A stretch of 64,000 nucleotides of DNA from Halosegnis marinus (GCF_029338355.1 NZ_CP119802.1:124001-188000), one strand, 5' to 3'; shown: positions 16,212 through 24,097, counted from the stretch's first letter. A program made the numbers and translations. Notes: generated by a model not told the origin, from the letters alone.

Positions 16212-16580
16212 TCAGGCCCGCCGGTACAGCACCGCCAGCACGACCACGAGCGCGACCTGTATGGCCTTGTCCGCGTAGCCGAGCGTCGAGAAGTCGGGCG
16301 CATTGAGCGCGTACCACGCGACCACCTGCCCGAGCGTGAACGGGATGCCGACCAGGTACATCGCCCGGCGCCGGTAGTCCACGAGCACCGCCGCGACCCC
16401 GGCGAGGTAGCCGACCCCGGCGACGGCGAAGGCGACCCCCAGCCCCGACGCGCCGAAGCTCGCGGCCAGCCCGAGGTGGAGCAGCCCGGTCGCGAGCGAC
16501 AGCAGTATCCCCGCCCAGTGCAGCGCCGTCAGCGAATCGGTGGCGAGCGTCGACCCGCTGCTCGCCGTTTGTGTCGCCAT
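16212..16580 (-). CDS. Four-helix membrane protein, unknown function
   Basis: 122 residues with four predicted membrane helices (about 20-38, 43-62, 72-90 and 100-120) joined by very short loops and containing YRRRAMYLVGIPFTLGQVVAWY. This is a haloarchaeal small-membrane-protein pattern without assigned function. A GGGAGG sequence lies just upstream of the ATG at 16580 and could act as a ribosome site, unlike most genes here. Confidence 0.7.
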   Translation of the reverse strand: MATQTASSGSTLATDSLTALHWAGILLSLATGLLHLGLAASFGASGLGVAFAVAGVGYLAGVAAVLVDYRRRAMYLVGIPFTLGQVVAWYALNAPDFSTLGYADKAIQVALVVVLAVLYRRA

Positions 16581-16605
16581 GCCTCCCGTTGGGACGGCGA
16601 GAGCT

Positions 16606-17724
16606 TCACTCTAAGGCCGCCGCGACGTGGTCGCGCAGGGCGTCCGCGAACCGCTCGGGGCCGAACCGGTCGCGCGGCAGCGTCGGCGTCAGTCCCGACT
16701 CGACGGCCGCGGCCACCCGCTCGGCCGCTCCCTCGACGCCGTCGAACAGCAGTCGTTCGTCGCCGGCGAGCACGTCGCGCTGGCCCCCGCTGTCCGGCGC
16801 GAACGCGACCATCCCCGCCGCGACGTACTCCGCGACGGCCATCCCGAAGTGCTCGTCCGGCTTGGCGTTCAGCCCGTAGCGGTAGCGCCCGAGCAGCGTC
16901 TCGACCCGCTCGCGGTCGGCGTCCGTCTCGACGGCGAGATAGGGGCGCTCGGCCGCGGCCGACCGCACCCGCTCGACGTAGTCGCGGTAGGCGGGCGCGG
17001 CGGTGCCGACGACGTGGAATCGGAGGTCGTGGCCCCGCTCGCGGACGGCGTCCGCGACCCGTATCGCGTCGAGCGTCCGCTTGTCGGGGGCGATGCGGCC
17101 GAGGACGAGCACACCCGGCTCACGGTCGGCCCACGCCCGCCCCGCGACGGGAGCCACGGGCGGGTGGAGCACCGCCGGGCGACGGCCGTAAATCGACGCG
17201 ACCGTGTCGGCGGTCCACGCGGAGTTGGCGAGCAGGTGCGCGTCGTCGCCGACGGCGCCGGGCGTCGGCCCCGCGAGGCGGCTCCACAGCGGGTCGAGCG
17301 TGCCCGGGTCGGCCCGCGGCGTCCGCCGGCCGTGGAACTGCGGGAAGTGGACGTACTGCAGCGAGGGGAGCGAGAGGGCGAACTCGTTCGCGGTGGAGAC
17401 GGCGAGGTCGTACTCGTCCGCGTGCCGCCGGAAGAAGGCCCGCAGGAGGGTGCTCCGGGCCGGCAACTGCGGCCCGATACGGGGTGCGGCCCGCGCGAAC
17501 GCCCCCGCGACGGCGTCGGCGAGGGGCGGCGACGCGACCCGAACGTCGCCCGGCACGTCGAGCGACACGCCGAAGTCCGCCGCGACGGCGGCCGGGTCGG
17601 CCCGCGAGACGGTGAACAGCGTCACGTCGTGGCGCTCGGCGAGGGCGGCACACGCCCGGACGCAGACGGCGTCCGCGCCGCCCCGCAGGTCGAGCGTGTT
17701 GTGCAACACCGCGAGCCGTGCCAT
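16606..17724 (-). CDS. Glycosyltransferase family 4 (GT-B fold)
   Basis: 372 residues. The N-terminal Rossmann half starts MARLAVLHNTLDLRGGADAV, the donor half has VLGRIAPDKRTLDAI, and the family motif EHFGMAVAEYVAAGMVAFAP carries the E-x7-E type nucleotide-sugar contacts. It should transfer a sugar from a nucleotide donor on the cytoplasmic face. The start at 17724 is supported by a CTTCAAC element (17746-17752) about 27 bases upstream. It is divergent, 73 bases apart, from the seven-gene operon at 17798, and may act in the same pathway. Confidence 0.9.
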   Translation of the reverse strand: MARLAVLHNTLDLRGGADAVCVRACAALAERHDVTLFTVSRADPAAVAADFGVSLDVPGDVRVASPPLADAVAGAFARAAPRIGPQLPARSTLLRAFFRRHADEYDLAVSTANEFALSLPSLQYVHFPQFHGRRTPRADPGTLDPLWSRLAGPTPGAVGDDAHLLANSAWTADTVASIYGRRPAVLHPPVAPVAGRAWADREPGVLVLGRIAPDKRTLDAIRVADAVRERGHDLRFHVVGTAAPAYRDYVERVRSAAAERPYLAVETDADRERVETLLGRYRYGLNAKPDEHFGMAVAEYVAAGMVAFAPDSGGQRDVLAGDERLLFDGVEGAAERVAAAVESGLTPTLPRDRFGPERFADALRDHVAAALE

Positions 17725-17767
17725 GGTCCGCCCAGGGACCGGGACCACTTCAACGGCGCGTACCGGG

Positions 17768-17773
17768 TTATAT
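17768..17773 (+). promoter_or_regulatory. TATA box of the seven-gene ArfA-containing operon
   Basis: TTATAT centred near 17771 is 27 bases before the GTG at 17798, the best TATA match of this intergenic region. It fixes the leaderless start of the fusion gene and would drive the whole overlapping operon to 24097. Confidence 0.65.
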
Positions 17774-17797
17774 GGCGCGGGCGTCCCTACGCCGTGT

Positions 17798-19744
17798 GTG
17801 GATTGTCTCTTCGTCGGGGCGGGGGCGGTCGCCGCGAAGTACGCCGAGGGGCTGGCGGCGTCGCCGCTGCGGCTCGCGGCCGTCTGCGACCGGGAGCGCG
17901 ACCGGGCCGAGCGGCTCGCCGGCGACCACGGCGCGGCCGCCTACGCCGACCTCGACGCCATGCTCGCGGCCGAGGACGCCGCGCTCGTCGTCAACCTCAC
18001 GGGCCACGCGGCCCACGCGCCGGTGACCGAGCGGTGTCTCGACGCCGACCGACACGTCTTCTCCGAGAAGCCGGCCGCGCTGTCCCCCGACCGCGCCGCG
18101 GGGCTAATCGAGCGCGCACGGGACCGAGAGCTGGCGTTCGGCTGTGCCCCGCTGGCCCCCGACTGCGACGCCCAGCGCCACGCCGCGACCCTGCTCGGGG
18201 ACGGTCGGCTCGGCCGGGTCCGGTTCGCCGCGGCGACGGCGAACGTCGGCCGGGTGGACCGCTGGCACGACCGCCCCGACTCCTTCCTCGCCGTCGGGCC
18301 GCTGTACGACGGCGCGGTCTATCCCCTGTCGGTGCTCGTCGCGTGGTTCGGCCGCGTCGAGCGGGTCAGGACCGCCGACGCCGTCCCGGCGTGGCCCGAG
18401 GACGCCCCCGAGGCGGACGCGCCGACGCACTGGGAGGCGACGCTCGCGTTCGCCGACGGCCCGACCGTCGCGCTCCGCGCCAGCTACTACGTCGACCACC
18501 GGAGCCGGGAGTTCTACGGGGTCGAACTCCACGGCGACGACGGGACGCTGTACCTCGACGACGCGGGCGCGATGGCCGCCGAGCGCGACGCCGTCACCGT
18601 CCGCGGGGGCGACCGCGAGCCGGTCGTCGCGCCCCACCCGAAACCCCGCCGCGAGCGGCGCTACCTCTACGGCCCGGAGCGGCTGGCCCGTGCCGTTGCC
18701 GCCGGCCGGCAGCCACGCGCCTCGGCCCGCCGGAGCGCCCACGTCGTCGCCGTCTGTGCGGCGGTCGAGCGCGCGGCGGCCGAGGGCGGGCCGGTGGATG
18801 TCGAAGGAGCAGCCCCGCCCCCTGCCGAAACACGCCGGTGGCCGGCACGGCCGGCGCCCGAGGGCCGACCGGACCGGGGCGCGATACGCCTCCCGCCGAT
18901 CGGGTTCGGCTGCTCGCGCTACCGCGACGGCGCGTACGTCGAGCCGGCGCTCGGCGCGGCCGTGGACGCCGGCTACCGGCTGTTCGACACGGCGGAGCTG
19001 TACGGCAACGAACACCGGCTCGGCGACGCGCTCGCCGGCCTCGGCCGCGACGGCGTCTTCCTGTTCGGGAAGGCGTGGAACACGAACCACGGGCCGGGCC
19101 ACCTCCGGGCGGCCTGCGAGGGGTCGCTCGCGGAACTCGGCGTCGAGGCGTTCGACTGCTACGCGCTCCACTGGCCCGACGCGTGGGAACACACCGACGA
19201 CCTCCGCCGGCTCTCCGAGCGGCCGGTCGCCGAACAGGAGGCGCTGACGTTCCCGACCGAGGGGGACGCGCCGGTCCGCGCGGACGTCTCCCTCGCGGAC
19301 ACGTGGCGGCGGCTCGAACGGCTCCGCGAGGAGGGGCTGACCCGCACGCTCGGCGTCTGTAACGTCACGCTCCCGCGGCTCGCGCGGCTGTGCGACGCGG
19401 CCCGCGTCCCGCCGGCCGTCGTGCAGGTGGAGCGCCACCCGTACCGGCCCCGCACGGCGCTCGTCGAGTGGTGTCACCGGCGCGGCATCCGAGTGATGGC
19501 ACACTCGCCGCTGTCGGCCCCCGGACTGCTCGACGAGCCGGCCGTGCGCGACGTGGCCGAGCGCGTCGATGCCGCCCCGGCGGCCGTCCTGCTCGCGTGG
19601 CACCGCGCCCGCGGCGTCGTTCCCATCCCCTCGACGACCGACCCCGGCCGCGCGAGCGAGAACCTCGCGGCCGCGCGCCTCCGGCTGGACGGCGACGCGC
19701 TCGCCCGGCTGGACGCCCTCGCGGACCCTTCCTTCGAGCGATGA
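17798..19744 (+). CDS. Gfo/Idh/MocA oxidoreductase fused to an aldo/keto reductase
   Basis: 648 residues, two enzymes in one chain. Residues 1-335 are a Gfo/Idh/MocA dehydrogenase: nucleotide loop GAGAVA (7-12) and the EKP motif (90-92). A short Pro/Arg-rich linker (about 336-362) joins an aldo/keto reductase (365-648) with the complete tetrad Asp397, Tyr402, Lys425 and His458 and an NADP-contact PSTTDPGRASENL. Both halves use NAD(P) to interconvert hydroxyl and carbonyl groups, usually on sugars or polyols. A two-step redox change on one substrate, or an epimerisation by oxidation and reduction, is plausible. The GTG start is set by the TATA box. It overlaps the next gene by ATGA. Confidence 0.9.
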   Translation: MDCLFVGAGAVAAKYAEGLAASPLRLAAVCDRERDRAERLAGDHGAAAYADLDAMLAAEDAALVVNLTGHAAHAPVTERCLDADRHVFSEKPAALSPDRAAGLIERARDRELAFGCAPLAPDCDAQRHAATLLGDGRLGRVRFAAATANVGRVDRWHDRPDSFLAVGPLYDGAVYPLSVLVAWFGRVERVRTADAVPAWPEDAPEADAPTHWEATLAFADGPTVALRASYYVDHRSREFYGVELHGDDGTLYLDDAGAMAAERDAVTVRGGDREPVVAPHPKPRRERRYLYGPERLARAVAAGRQPRASARRSAHVVAVCAAVERAAAEGGPVDVEGAAPPPAETRRWPARPAPEGRPDRGAIRLPPIGFGCSRYRDGAYVEPALGAAVDAGYRLFDTAELYGNEHRLGDALAGLGRDGVFLFGKAWNTNHGPGHLRAACEGSLAELGVEAFDCYALHWPDAWEHTDDLRRLSERPVAEQEALTFPTEGDAPVRADVSLADTWRRLERLREEGLTRTLGVCNVTLPRLARLCDAARVPPAVVQVERHPYRPRTALVEWCHRRGIRVMAHSPLSAPGLLDEPAVRDVAERVDAAPAAVLLAWHRARGVVPIPSTTDPGRASENLAAARLRLDGDALARLDALADPSFER

Positions 19745-20499
19745 GCCGGCTCCGTCCCGCGATGCGCCGCCGGCTGGTCGCGGTCGCGGTCGTCGGCCTG
19801 CTCGCGGCGACCGTGGTGGCGGCCGCGACCGCGAGCCGCTACGGCACGACCGAGGCGACGGCGTGGCTCGCGGCCGCGGCGCTCCCGCTCGGCTACGTCG
19901 CCGCCGCCCCGGCGTGGTGGCTCGTCAGGGACGGCGCCGAGGCGACGACGCTCGGGGTGGCGAACGGCATCACGCTGGCGCGGGGCGGGATGTACGCGCT
20001 CGTCGCCGGCTTCCTGCTCGTCGTGCCGCCCGCGGGCGACCCGTGGCGCTGGCTCCCCGCCCTCCTCTACGGGGCCGGCGCGGCGCTCGACGCCGTGGAC
20101 GGGGCCGTCGCGCGCCGGGTCGGCACCCCGACCCGGCTCGGCGAACGGCTCGACATGGGGTTCGACACGCTGGGCTTCCTCGTCGCCCCGCTGGTCGCGG
20201 TGGCGTGGGGACGGCTCCCCGTGTGGTACCTCTCGCTGTCGGCGGCGCGCTACTGCTACCGCCTCGGCTGTGCGCTCCACGTCCGGCGGGGCGGGACCCT
20301 CCGCCCGCTCCCCGAGAGCCGCGTCCGCCGCCCGCTCGCGGGGGTCCAGATGGCTTTCATCGCGGTCGCGCTCGCGCCGGTCGTCCCGGTCGCGGTCGTC
20401 GAGGCGGCCGCCGCGGTCGTGCTCGTCCCCTCGCTCGCGGTCTTCTGCCGCGACTTCCTCGTCGTGACCTCCGCCGGAGGACTGAAACAACGTTCATGA
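19741..20499 (+). CDS. CDP-alcohol phosphatidyltransferase family membrane protein
   Basis: 252 residues with about six membrane helices. The complete family signature is present: Asp117-x2-Asp120-Gly-x2-Ala-Arg-x8-Gly134-x3-Asp138-x3-Asp142, where the aspartates bind metals. It should move a phospho-alcohol from a CDP-linked donor to an acceptor alcohol in the membrane, as in lipid head-group synthesis. Being translationally coupled (ATGA) to a sugar/polyol oxidoreductase and to ArfA, it may attach an unusual head group. Acceptor and donor cannot be read from sequence. Confidence 0.9.
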   Translation: MSRLRPAMRRRLVAVAVVGLLAATVVAAATASRYGTTEATAWLAAAALPLGYVAAAPAWWLVRDGAEATTLGVANGITLARGGMYALVAGFLLVVPPAGDPWRWLPALLYGAGAALDAVDGAVARRVGTPTRLGERLDMGFDTLGFLVAPLVAVAWGRLPVWYLSLSAARYCYRLGCALHVRRGGTLRPLPESRVRRPLAGVQMAFIAVALAPVVPVAVVEAAAAVVLVPSLAVFCRDFLVVTSAGGLKQRS

Positions 20500-21311
20500 C
20501 CGTCCGGTCCAAGGGGCGCGCAGTGACACGACACGCAGACGGGGGTGCGCGGATGGTCGCCGTGCAGGTGGACGACTACGGCCCGTGGACGACGACCCCG
20601 CGACCCCGCCGCGAGACGGACCTCCAGGCCCTTCAGGCGCGGCTGTTCGCCGACGTGGCGGACTTCGTCGGCGGCCGTGACGGCTACGCCTTCGCCGGCC
20701 GGTTCGACAACATGGTGGGCACCGCGACCCGCATCGAGACGGACACGTTCGAGCGCCTCCAGGAGCGGGTCCGGAACCGCTACCCGGTGACGGTGAGTAT
20801 CGGGGTGGGGACGGGTGAGACGCCGGCGGCCGCGCTCGACGCCGCGGGGAGCGTCATCAGCGACGCGGGGAGCGCGCAGGGCGACCGCCGCGAGACGCTC
20901 GGCGACCGGGTCGCGGAGGGGTTCGACGGGGCGCCCGACACGGTCACCGTCGCGCACTTCGACGTGGTGGACGCGACGGGCACCTACACGGACGCCGTCT
21001 CGCCCACCCGCGCGGAACTCGACATCCGCGGGGGCGTGCTCTCGCTCGCCGAGTACCTCCACGACGAACACGGCGCGGTGACGCAGTTCGTCGGCGGCGA
21101 CAACGCCATCGCGGTGACGCCCGCGCTCGACCGCGCGGCCGTCGCGGCGGCGACCGACCACGTCCGCGCCGAGGTCGGCGTGGACCTCCAGGTCGGCGTC
21201 GGGCGCGGCCCGACCGCCCACGCGGCGGGCGACGAGGCCAAACACGCGCTGGAGACCTGCCGCGAGACCGGCCGCCGCGCCCACGGCCCGTGGGCCGCCG
21301 CGGACGACTGA
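20496..21311 (+). CDS. arfA: GTP cyclohydrolase III / archaeal ArfA
   Basis: 271 residues. QVDDYGPWTTTPRPRRETDL, the FDNM segment, VSIGVGTGETPAAALDAAG and FVGGDNAIAV match GTP cyclohydrolase III, a diguanylate-cyclase-like fold. The enzyme opens GTP to the formylaminopyrimidine ribotide that starts archaeal riboflavin and F420 synthesis. The start is taken at ATG 20496 because it overlaps the upstream stop (ATGA) like every other junction in the operon. GTG 20523 or ATG 20553 (MVAVQVDD) would give an N-terminus closer to known ArfA. Downstream partners are an MDR enzyme and a PTPS-fold protein. Confidence 0.9.
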   Translation: MTVRSKGRAVTRHADGGARMVAVQVDDYGPWTTTPRPRRETDLQALQARLFADVADFVGGRDGYAFAGRFDNMVGTATRIETDTFERLQERVRNRYPVTVSIGVGTGETPAAALDAAGSVISDAGSAQGDRRETLGDRVAEGFDGAPDTVTVAHFDVVDATGTYTDAVSPTRAELDIRGGVLSLAEYLHDEHGAVTQFVGGDNAIAVTPALDRAAVAAATDHVRAEVGVDLQVGVGRGPTAHAAGDEAKHALETCRETGRRAHGPWAAADD

Positions 21312-22312
21312 TGGAGGCGAGGACGCTCTACTTCGCCGAGCCGGGCCGCGTCGAGCGGCGGACGCGACCGCTCGCGGCCCCCGACCCCGGCGAGGTCGTC
21401 GTCGAGACGACCGCGTCGGGCATCAGCGCCGGCTCGGAACTGCTCGTGTACCGCGGCGAGGTGCCCGACGGGATGGCCGTCGACGCCACCATCGACGTGC
21501 TCGACGGGGAGTTCGCCTACCCGCTCGCGTACGGCTACGCGGCCGTCGGCGAGGTGGTGGCCGCCGGCGACGGGACCTCGGTCGGGGTCGGACGGCGCGT
21601 CTTCGCCTTCCACCCGCACGCCGACCGCTTCCGTACGGGGGAGGACGCGGTCGTCCCGCTCCCGGACGGCGTCGGCACCGAGGCGGCGACGCTCCTCCCG
21701 AGCGTCGAGACGGCGACCAACATCGCGCTGGACGCCGCCCCGAAGGTCGGGGAGCGCGCGGTCGTGTTCGGGGCCGGCGCGGTCGGCCTCTGTACGATAG
21801 CCGTGCTCGCCGACTTCCCGCTGGAACGGCTCGTCGCCGTCGAACCGGTCGCCGCCCGGCGGGAGCGGGCGCTCGCGCTCGGGGCGGACGCCGCCGTCTC
21901 CCCCGAGGAGTTCGACGGCTTTCCCGACGCGACCCCCGCCGGGGCCGACCTCGCCGTGGAGCTGTCGGGCCGGCCCGCGACGCTGGACGACGCCATCGAC
22001 GCCGTCGGCTTCGACGGCCGCGTCGTCGTCGGCTCGTGGTACGGGACGAAGCGGTCGCCGGTCGCGCTCGGCGGCTGTTTCCACCGCGACCGAATCAGCG
22101 TCGAGTCGAGCCAGGTGAGCACCGTCGCGCCCGAACTCCGGGGACGGTGGACCACCGACCGACGGCTCGATGCCGCGCTCGACCGGGTGGCCCGGCTCGA
22201 CGCCGACCGCCTCCTCACCCACCGCGTCCCGTTCGCCGAGGCCGAGGACGCGTACCGACTGCTCGACGAGGGAGCCGACGACGCCCTACAGGTCGTCCTC
22301 ACCTACCCGTGA
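21311..22312 (+). CDS. MDR-superfamily dehydrogenase in the arfA operon
   Basis: 333 residues of the zinc alcohol dehydrogenase superfamily (ETTASGISAGSELLVYRGEVP, then YGYAAVGEVVAAG, then the Rossmann loop FGAGAVGLCTIA). The usual GHE zinc motif reads YGYAAVG and the structural zinc cysteines are absent, so it is probably zinc-free, like the BchC/2-desacetyl-hydroxyethyl-type branch. It overlaps arfA by one base (TGATG) and the PTPS-like gene by four (GTGA), so all three are made together. An NAD(P)-dependent reduction or oxidation of an ArfA-derived or sugar intermediate is an inference. Confidence 0.88.
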   Translation: MEARTLYFAEPGRVERRTRPLAAPDPGEVVVETTASGISAGSELLVYRGEVPDGMAVDATIDVLDGEFAYPLAYGYAAVGEVVAAGDGTSVGVGRRVFAFHPHADRFRTGEDAVVPLPDGVGTEAATLLPSVETATNIALDAAPKVGERAVVFGAGAVGLCTIAVLADFPLERLVAVEPVAARRERALALGADAAVSPEEFDGFPDATPAGADLAVELSGRPATLDDAIDAVGFDGRVVVGSWYGTKRSPVALGGCFHRDRISVESSQVSTVAPELRGRWTTDRRLDAALDRVARLDADRLLTHRVPFAEAEDAYRLLDEGADDALQVVLTYP

Positions 22313-22707
22313 CCACCGACAGCCCGACCGAGCCGTACCGGCTCACCGTCCGCCGCGAGTTCGTCGCACAGCACTTCCTCACCGTCCCCGACCCCGGGCC
22401 CGAGGGGGAGCCACACAGCCACGTCTTCACCGCCGAGGTCGAGTTCGCCGGGCCGGACCTCGGCGCGTACGGCTACCTCGTCGATATCGACGCGGTCGAG
22501 GCGGTGCTCGACGACGTCGTCGGCCGCTACCGCGACGCGCTGCTGAACGACCTCCCGGAGTTCGACGGGAACCCCAGCGTCGAGCGGTTCGCCCGGCTGT
22601 TCGGGGACCGCGTGGTCGACGGGCTGGACGACCCGACCCCCACCCGGCTCGTCGTCCGGCTGTGGGAGGACGACCTCGCGTGGGCGAGCCACGAGCGCCG
22701 GCTGTGA
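22309..22707 (+). CDS. PTPS/QueD-fold protein without the catalytic cysteine
   Basis: 132 residues of the 6-pyruvoyl-tetrahydropterin synthase fold. The three zinc histidines are kept (His22 in VAQHFL, His36 and His38 in EPHSHVF), as are the pterin-anchoring region near WEDD (119-122) and an Asp/Glu-rich middle (LVDIDAVEAVLDD). The catalytic Cys normally just before the HxH pair is replaced by an EGE stretch. It should therefore bind a pterin or formylaminopyrimidine-type ligand and zinc, but is unlikely to run the standard PTPS or QueD reaction. Coupled to the MDR gene upstream and the methyltransferase downstream by GTGA overlaps. Confidence 0.87.
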   Translation: MTTDSPTEPYRLTVRREFVAQHFLTVPDPGPEGEPHSHVFTAEVEFAGPDLGAYGYLVDIDAVEAVLDDVVGRYRDALLNDLPEFDGNPSVERFARLFGDRVVDGLDDPTPTRLVVRLWEDDLAWASHERRL

Positions 22708-23546
22708 GCCACGACCACGGCCGCCGGCGCTACCTGCTCGCCAAGCGGTCCGTCGACGCCCGGGCGCGCGACCGCCGGGTGCGCGACGCGATGCTCGACG
22801 CCCTCGTCCCCGAGCCCCGCGTCTTCGAGGCCGGACCGGGGGCGGGACTGGGCGCGCTCGACCTCCGCGAGTGGGGCGTGACGCCGTCGTCGTACCGGGG
22901 CGTGGACGCCGACCCGGGCGTGGCCGCGTTTGCCGCCCGCCTCCTTCCCCGGGCGTTCGCCCGCGCCGGCTACGACGCCAACCCCGTCGAGGGCGGCTGT
23001 CGCATCGGGGACACGACCTACCGCTTCGAGGCGGGCGACGCGGTGGCCGCGCTCCCCGGCGCCGGCGCGGACCTCGTCGTTGCGCAGTCCTTCCTCGACC
23101 TCGTGGAACGCGACCGCGTTCTGGACGCCGTGGCCGCCGGACTCTCGCCCGGCGGGGTCGCCTACGCCCCGCTCACCTTCGACGGCGTGACGCTGTTCCA
23201 GCCGTCGCACCCCGAGGACGACGCGGTGGCCGAGCGGTACCACGACGCCATCGACGCGGCGCCCGGCCGGGACGCGCGGGCGGGACGGCACGTCCTCGAC
23301 GCGCTCCGCCGACGCGGCGACGAGGTGCTCGCGGTCGGGGCCTCGGACTGGATCGTTCGCCCCGCAAACGGCGGCTACCCCGCCGACGAGCGGCGCTTCC
23401 TCGACCGGATACTCGACTTCGTCGCGGCGGCGGTCGACCGCGACGACTGGGTCGCGACGCGGCGCGAACAGGTCGAGGCGGGCGACCTCCTCTACGTCGC
23501 GCACGGCTACGACCTGCTGTGGCGCCCCGGGGGCGACGGGCCGTGA
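22704..23546 (+). CDS. Class I SAM-dependent methyltransferase-like protein
   Basis: 280 residues. A basic N-terminus (RRRYLLAKRSVDARARDRRVRDAM) is followed by the SAM-binding motif I VFEAGPGAGLGALDL, an acidic motif II with GVDADPG, and VVAQSFLDLVERDRVLDAVAAGLSPGG resembling motifs IV-V. The C-terminal 100 residues form a substrate-binding part. The methyl acceptor is unknown; the operon suggests a small molecule or lipid head group. GTG start overlapping the previous stop; the stop overlaps the next ATG (TGATG). Confidence 0.87.
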   Translation: MSHDHGRRRYLLAKRSVDARARDRRVRDAMLDALVPEPRVFEAGPGAGLGALDLREWGVTPSSYRGVDADPGVAAFAARLLPRAFARAGYDANPVEGGCRIGDTTYRFEAGDAVAALPGAGADLVVAQSFLDLVERDRVLDAVAAGLSPGGVAYAPLTFDGVTLFQPSHPEDDAVAERYHDAIDAAPGRDARAGRHVLDALRRRGDEVLAVGASDWIVRPANGGYPADERRFLDRILDFVAAAVDRDDWVATRREQVEAGDLLYVAHGYDLLWRPGGDGP

Positions 23547-24097
23547 TGGTCATCACCCACGTCGCGGTGGCGCTGCTCGCGGCGTCGGCCGTCGCCGTGG
23601 CCGCCCCGGAGTTCGCGGCGGCCGCGGCCGTCGGCGCGTACGTCGGCGGTACCCTCCCCGACATCGACCTGTTCGTCGGCGTCCACCGGCGCACGCTCCA
23701 CTTCCCCGTGCTCGGGCCGGCGCTCGCCGTGCCCGCGGTGGCCGTCGCGCTGGTCGTCCCCTCGGACGCGACGGTCGCCGTCGCCGTCGCGCTCGTCGGG
23801 GCGGGCGTTCACGCCGCGAGCGACGCGCTCGGAGCCGGCGAGGAACTGCGCCCGTGGGAGCGGACGAACCCGAACGCGGTGTACGACCACGCCTCCGGGC
23901 GGTGGTGGCGCGCGCGCTACCTCGTGCCGTACGACGGCTCGCCGCGCGACCTCGCGGTCGCGGTCCTCGCCGCGGTTCCGACCCTGCTCGTCTACGACGG
24001 CCCCGTCGCGTGGGTGCTCGCGGGGCTGCTGGTCGCGGCGGCCCTCTACACCGCCGTCCGACGCCGGGTGGTTCCGTACTTCGAGGCGATGCTGTAA
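23546..24097 (+). CDS. DUF457 (YdjM-like) membrane metal-dependent hydrolase family
   Basis: 183 residues. ITHVAVALLAA at the start and the GGTLPDIDLF motif with its acidic residues and His are hallmarks of the DUF457/YdjM family, which has phospholipase-C-like metal sites set among membrane helices (here four to five helices). Its place as the last gene of an overlapping operon with a CDP-alcohol transferase suggests action on a membrane lipid. No family member's reaction is firmly known to me. Confidence 0.82.
   Translation: MVITHVAVALLAASAVAVAAPEFAAAAAVGAYVGGTLPDIDLFVGVHRRTLHFPVLGPALAVPAVAVALVVPSDATVAVAVALVGAGVHAASDALGAGEELRPWERTNPNAVYDHASGRWWRARYLVPYDGSPRDLAVAVLAAVPTLLVYDGPVAWVLAGLLVAAALYTAVRRRVVPYFEAML

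Follow-up and report, generated by a model that had tools for sequence, protein, structure and literature searches.

A candidate branch off GTP in the haloarchaeon Halosegnis marinus and its relation to the SCO6650 gene cluster of Streptomyces

The operon around a divergent copy of the GTP cyclohydrolase III ArfA in Halosegnis marinus is read here, at a probability of about 0.6, as encoding a dedicated branch off GTP and as a homologue of the bacterial gene cluster that contains SCO6650 of Streptomyces. That both kinds of cluster serve a shared pathway fed by 2-amino-5-formylamino-6-ribosylamino-pyrimidinone 5'-phosphate (FAPy) is considered highly probable, and a product other than a flavin is considered likely. 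A preliminary description of this DNA had proposed that the ArfA product enters a pathway not yet described, beyond the needs of riboflavin and F420; this idea is upheld by the occurrence of the bacterial set with another cyclohydrolase and by a second ArfA in the genome, and the proposal overall is partly supported.

Layout of the gene set

The window, the whole stretch of 64,000 nucleotides analysed (GCF_029338355.1, NZ_CP119802.1:124001-188000), carries seven open reading frames at 17798-24097, in agreement with the seven-gene operon described earlier. The whole unit spans 16212-24097 once a family 4 glycosyltransferase (GT4) gene and a DUF7475 gene at its left are counted, both of which recur with the cluster elsewhere.

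16212..16580, minus strand: DUF7475 small membrane protein (PF24287, 46 bits, cut-off 31.3), outside the interval of the preliminary description
16606..17724, minus strand: family 4 glycosyltransferase (type a), divergent (Pfam Glycos_transf_1)
17798..19744, plus strand: Gfo/Idh/MocA oxidoreductase and aldo-keto reductase fusion (PF01408, PF00248)
19741..20499, plus strand: CDP-alcohol phosphotransferase (PF01066, 1.4e-16)
20496..21311, plus strand: GTP cyclohydrolase III (ArfA), divergent second copy (PF05165, 303.5 bits; NF002587)
21311..22312, plus strand: zinc-free MDR dehydrogenase, distantly BchC-like (PF00107/PF08240)
22309..22707, plus strand: PTPS-fold protein, counterpart of Streptomyces SCO6650 (PDB 3d7j) (PF01242, 82.5 bits)
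22704..23546, plus strand: class I SAM methyltransferase (profile match to methyltransferases of the bacterial clusters; predicted fold)
23546..24097, plus strand: DUF457/YdjM-like membrane protein (PF04307 below cut-off; hydrophobic segments)

The GT4 gene, on the minus strand, has its start at 17724 and lies, as had been noted, 73 bases from the GTG of the first operon gene at 17798. The junctions of the seven genes read ATGA (19741-19744), ATGA (20496-20499), TGATG (21309-21313), GTGA (22309-22312), GTGA (22704-22707) and TGATG (23544-23548). The claimed overlap is firm at five of these six junctions, as overlap at the second presupposes an ArfA start at 20496. An alternative ATG at 20553 (MVAVQVDDYGPW) is the better match to the family start and would leave a gap of 53 bases before the gene; the GTP cyclohydrolase III domain begins at residue 20 when read from 20496, and 20553 is likely the true start. 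The grouping of the genes is beyond chance, because the same genes co-occur in other haloarchaea and in bacteria.

Pfam matches confirmed the domains assigned beforehand to the Gfo/AKR fusion, the CDP-alcohol transferase, ArfA, the zinc-free MDR and the PTPS-fold protein, with DUF457 remaining below its cut-off. The methyltransferase has no Pfam match of its own; its identity is supported by the Pfam match of a 52%-identical relative and by a predicted model (pLDDT 82.5) resembling class I SAM methyltransferases, and a fold search with this model returned generic small-molecule methyltransferases only and no substrate hint. A profile match over 262 columns (probability 99.6) to the methyltransferases of the bacterial clusters indicates homology between the archaeal and bacterial proteins along their length. 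The motif DxxDGxxAR(x8)GxxxDxxxD of CDP-alcohol transferases is present in the operon copy (DAVDGAVARRVGTPTRLGERLDMGFD); among the cluster enzymes, it was seen in 35 of 40 from haloarchaea and in all 16 from bacteria. The operon MDR is 37-41% identical to the MDRs of the bacterial clusters; the nearest named MDR model is BchC, from which it is set apart by a score far below cut-off (77.9 bits, cut-off 291) and by the lack of a bacteriochlorophyll context in this region.

Distribution in haloarchaea

The cluster is patchy, with the MDR present in 64 of 106 haloarchaeal genomes and not found in 42. Near 60 haloarchaeal MDR genes, PTPS was encountered 56 times, GT4 of two kinds 47 times, the methyltransferase 43 times, the CDP-alcohol transferase 40 times and DUF7475 37 times, so that a conserved core of MDR-PTPS-(GT4)-methyltransferase with CDP-alcohol transferase and DUF7475 is evident. 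The expectation that all seven genes stay together did not hold: ArfA (24/60), the Gfo/AKR fusion (17-18/60) and DUF457 (13/60) are optional, and PAP2 was seen in 6/60. Since 36 of the 60 loci have no nearby ArfA, the enzyme either acts from elsewhere in those genomes or is dispensable. The order MDR-PTPS-GT4-methyltransferase was found in 24 haloarchaeal loci and MDR-PTPS-methyltransferase in 13, and GT4 was of type a in 8/60 loci and of type b in 39/60, never both together (Fisher p 8e-5, kinship ignored). ArfA, MDR, PTPS, methyltransferase, CDP-alcohol transferase and Gfo-AKR occur together in five other loci (L014, L021, L030, L237 and L254), four of which also have DUF457.

The fullest haloarchaeal clusters, L254 (genome G102) and L237 (G058), comprise ArfA, MDR, PTPS, GT4, methyltransferase, Gfo-AKR, DUF7475, CDP-alcohol transferase and DUF457, and that of L254 has in addition a creatininase, like Streptomyces. 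This is the only linked creatininase in the haloarchaeal clusters, among which no linked RibD_C was found. In four genomes (G088, G092, G004 and G034) the MDR match is split into two adjacent halves, which suggests a frameshift, a pseudogene or an assembly error.

Bacterial counterparts

When plasmids were searched with MDR and PTPS as queries, clusters came to light in Streptomyces, Arthrobacter, Rhizobiaceae, Methylosinus, Thiodictyon and Rhodobacterales, and a genome scan yielded at least 593 confirmed relatives. The bacterial clusters consist of MDR-PTPS-(GT4)-methyltransferase with a varying complement of CDP-alcohol transferase, RibD-type reductase, GTP cyclohydrolase II (GCH II) and creatininase; the proteobacterial ones mostly include RibD_C and often the CDP-alcohol transferase and/or GCH II. 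The Gfo/AKR fusion was not seen in annotated bacterial clusters. For actinobacteria, the sample consists of the best 80 of at least 593 relatives; being matches to one Streptomyces MDR, these are closely related and not independent. The 64 loci of at least 20 kb among them were counted: all 64 have MDR, PTPS, methyltransferase, CDP-alcohol transferase and LPG_synthase_TM, while GT4 was found in 63, creatininase in 62 and GCH II in 62. The haloarchaeal MDRs form one clade in the MDR tree (support 100), so that one ancient exchange between the domains would suffice.

SCO6650 (PDB 3d7j) is the PTPS encoded in the Streptomyces cluster; the cluster PTPS of S. fungicidicus is nearly identical to it, and 3d7j is also the top match of a profile pooled from both domains. 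An invariant glutamate, at the position that binds a 2-amino-4-oxo ring in this fold, is common to the aligned PTPS proteins. Identity between haloarchaeal and bacterial copies is only 23-32%, and the FGPAQ signature of all 21 bacterial copies is missing from the haloarchaeal ones, 50 of 56 of which have AQH instead; the haloarchaeal protein is therefore filed as a counterpart of PTPS-IV and not as a member. The link to the SCO6650 cluster is drawn by the common presence of MDR, PTPS, methyltransferase, CDP-alcohol transferase and GT4 together with a GTP ring-opening enzyme. The SCO6650 region and its actinobacterial relatives thus share with the archaeon homologous MDR, PTPS, methyltransferase and CDP-alcohol transferase, a GT4 and an enzyme predicted to stop at FAPy; they differ in having a GCH II variant, creatininase, LPG_synthase_TM and sometimes RibD_C where the archaeon has ArfA, Gfo-AKR, DUF7475 and DUF457.

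The bacterial PTPS-IV neighbourhoods have been partly noted before, as GCH II and RibD_C neighbours of PTPS-IV were seen by gene-neighbourhood analysis (PMC5445326). A review of haloarchaeal gaps lists arfA and does not mention MDR or PTPS neighbours in its main text (PMC8305020). A description of the whole cluster was not found in the literature searched, which lay mostly outside subscription papers, and earlier reports may exist.

Two cyclohydrolases and a probable common intermediate

The operon ArfA belongs to the GTP cyclohydrolase III family (NF002587, 324 bits, cut-off 306) and is 52% identical to the second ArfA of the same genome (G000:C1:2502200-2502913). Among 124 haloarchaeal ArfA proteins, it falls into a divergent clade of 13 from five families (SH-aLRT 100), of which 12 adjoin an MDR; in the quick version of the tree used, it sits on a long branch beside L040 and its exact placement is unsure. 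The operon copy departs at 16 of 95 columns that are near-invariant in canonical ArfA; D52, N53, H135, D137 and GGDN181-184 are invariant in the divergent clade. Because all 13 members keep 54 of the 95 residues, including GGDN, the divergent group is likely an active cyclohydrolase. Canonical ArfA genes are also MDR-linked in other lineages, and the MDR stands directly downstream in 32 of 120 ArfA neighbourhoods. Cluster linkage requires eight changes on the ArfA tree, at least three of them forced by supported branches, from which ArfA seems to have been recruited to the cluster repeatedly.

Two further observations concern the ArfA inventory. A divergent-group ArfA without a nearby MDR occurs in L017 (G117). 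In G079, G089, G140, G145 and G044, ArfA was not found at E 1e-10 or better; their close relatives have it, and the organisms might be auxotrophic for riboflavin or employ a different cyclohydrolase. Genus g6 accounts for four of these genomes; in G050, the remaining sampled member of that genus, the cluster ArfA is the sole copy.

In bacteria, the place of ArfA appears to be taken by GCH II. Tyrosine stands at the position of E. coli Tyr105, which goes with deformylation, in three ordinary solved enzymes (E. coli, Mycobacterium and Helicobacter). Among 75 actinobacterial cluster GCH II proteins, the equivalent residue is methionine in 68, histidine in 6 and tyrosine in 1. With SCO6655, which has methionine at this place, the reaction reportedly stops at FAPy, according to work of the Bandarian laboratory. 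As the tyrosine is replaced, the actinobacterial cluster GCH II should halt at the same FAPy that ArfA makes. Three proteobacterial cluster GCH II proteins retain the tyrosine, and their loci are without creatininase. Ordinary GCH II performs both GTP ring opening and formyl removal, and BrbF, of the creatininase family, deformylates FAPy (PMC9478397). The cluster creatininase shares this family with the formamidases BrbF and ArfB and scores below the ArfB and MftE cut-offs; as a putative formamidase, it would fit an arrangement in which actinobacteria seem to split opening and deformylation in the manner of archaeal ArfA and ArfB. Two unrelated cyclohydrolases thus seem to supply a single pathway with one and the same intermediate, and this common beginning at FAPy argues more strongly than anything else for treating the pyrimidine and the decorating halves of the cluster as one pathway.

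Proposed pathway and alternatives

In the proposed sequence of reactions, ArfA would, on strong grounds, open GTP to FAPy. Deformylation by a creatininase-type formamidase and reduction of the ribose by a RibD-type reductase would follow, both enzymes being often encoded within the cluster in bacteria and presumably supplied from elsewhere in the genome in this archaeon. The bacterial cluster reductases examined match RibD_C only and have no deaminase domain, so that the 2-amino group, unlike in riboflavin, would probably be retained. Remodelling of the diaminopyrimidine, or of a pterin derived from it, may then fall to the PTPS-fold enzyme and the MDR, and its decoration to GT4 and the methyltransferase, joined in some archaea by the sugar-type oxidoreductases. 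In the least certain step, suggested because of the CDP-alcohol transferase and the recurring membrane-protein families, the compound might be linked by a phosphodiester to an archaeol lipid. Judging from the gene families present, which argue for glycosylation and methylation, the product would be a 2-aminopyrimidine or pterin that carries sugar and methyl groups and is probably attached to a lipid of the membrane; membrane attachment is plausible, and attachment to a lipid is given slightly less than an even chance. The broadest form of the proposal, a pathway common to haloarchaea, actinobacteria and proteobacteria that leads to GTP-derived glycosylated, methylated 2-aminopyrimidine or pterin phospholipids with two unrelated cyclohydrolases meeting at FAPy, is offered tentatively.

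CDP-alcohol transferases can also use soluble alcohols, as in di-myo-inositol phosphate synthesis, and the enzyme could accordingly join two soluble parts into a glycosylated, methylated FAPy-derived product that never reaches a lipid. The recurrence of LPG_synthase_TM, DUF7475, DUF457 and PAP2 membrane proteins beside the clusters speaks against such a soluble compound, which is considered unlikely.

Two pathways might be encoded side by side, a pyrimidine half of ArfA, MDR and PTPS and a lipid or glycan half of CDP-alcohol transferase, GT4, methyltransferase, DUF457 and Gfo-AKR, as ArfA-MDR-PTPS-GT4 stands alone in many haloarchaeal loci and the CDP-alcohol transferase lies on differing sides across genomes. 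However, the CDP-alcohol transferase and the methyltransferase are linked to MDR-PTPS in each of the 64 actinobacterial loci (from the best 80 of at least 593) and also in proteobacteria, at a distance where chance linkage should have broken, and such a division is rather improbable.

An operon for riboflavin or F420, in which the MDR and PTPS would be missing or accessory steps and the other genes passengers, was rejected as the main reading and is given a somewhat smaller chance still. It draws on the many genomes of family f4 in which the ArfA directly before MDR-PTPS-GT4 is canonical and often the only copy, on the riboflavin auxotrophy of a Haloferax volcanii arfA deletion (PMC8305020) and on the unpublished assignment of PTPS-IV to F420 synthesis (PMC5041015). 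Against this, the second ArfA means that the operon copy is not the sole source of riboflavin precursor in this genome, the MDR does not accompany ArfA throughout (64 of 106 haloarchaeal genomes against 189 of 194), each of 13 actinobacterial genomes checked has two to four GCH II genes, and glycosyltransferase, methyltransferase and CDP-alcohol transferase accompany the set in both domains. The earlier suggestion that neighbours of ArfA may be missing riboflavin steps is disfavoured by the same second ArfA and the same patchy MDR. Compared with the archaeal ArfA-ArfB-ArfC route to riboflavin and F420, the operon draws its first enzyme from the same family and would presumably make the same initial product; it differs by its divergent second ArfA, by the lack of deaminase, RibH and RibE and by its additional glycosyl-, methyl- and CDP-alcohol transferases.

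A QueD of archaeosine synthesis or a folate-type PTPS-III in an incidental position, both of the same Pfam family as the operon protein, is suggested by the absence of any other PTPS-family protein found in the genome and by public annotation of relatives; it was rejected as highly improbable, because the QueD model TIGR03367 scores 37.6 bits (cut-off 89), the motifs CxxxHGH and ExxHGH are absent (the operon protein has EGEPHSH), QueC-like matches in the genome are weak and partial and no queuosine genes are among the annotated neighbours examined. Halosegnis marinus itself may be without archaeosine synthesis. The cluster PTPS of L069, L070, L074 and L075 is annotated as 6-carboxytetrahydropterin synthase of queuosine biosynthesis, with no queuosine genes nearby.

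Significance

Should the reading of the operon as a branch off GTP be true, the ring-opened GTP made by ArfA would serve a third purpose in addition to flavins and F420, and a widespread pathway would be common to a salt-loving archaeon and the bacteria in which hundreds of relatives occur. The common Streptomyces cluster with the solved SCO6650 structure would gain an archaeal counterpart that narrows its chemistry, with the exchange of cyclohydrolases as a direct handle on the starting compound. Equally, the labels of ArfA, PTPS and zinc-binding dehydrogenase proteins, which point to queuosine and riboflavin in many genomes, would need correction.
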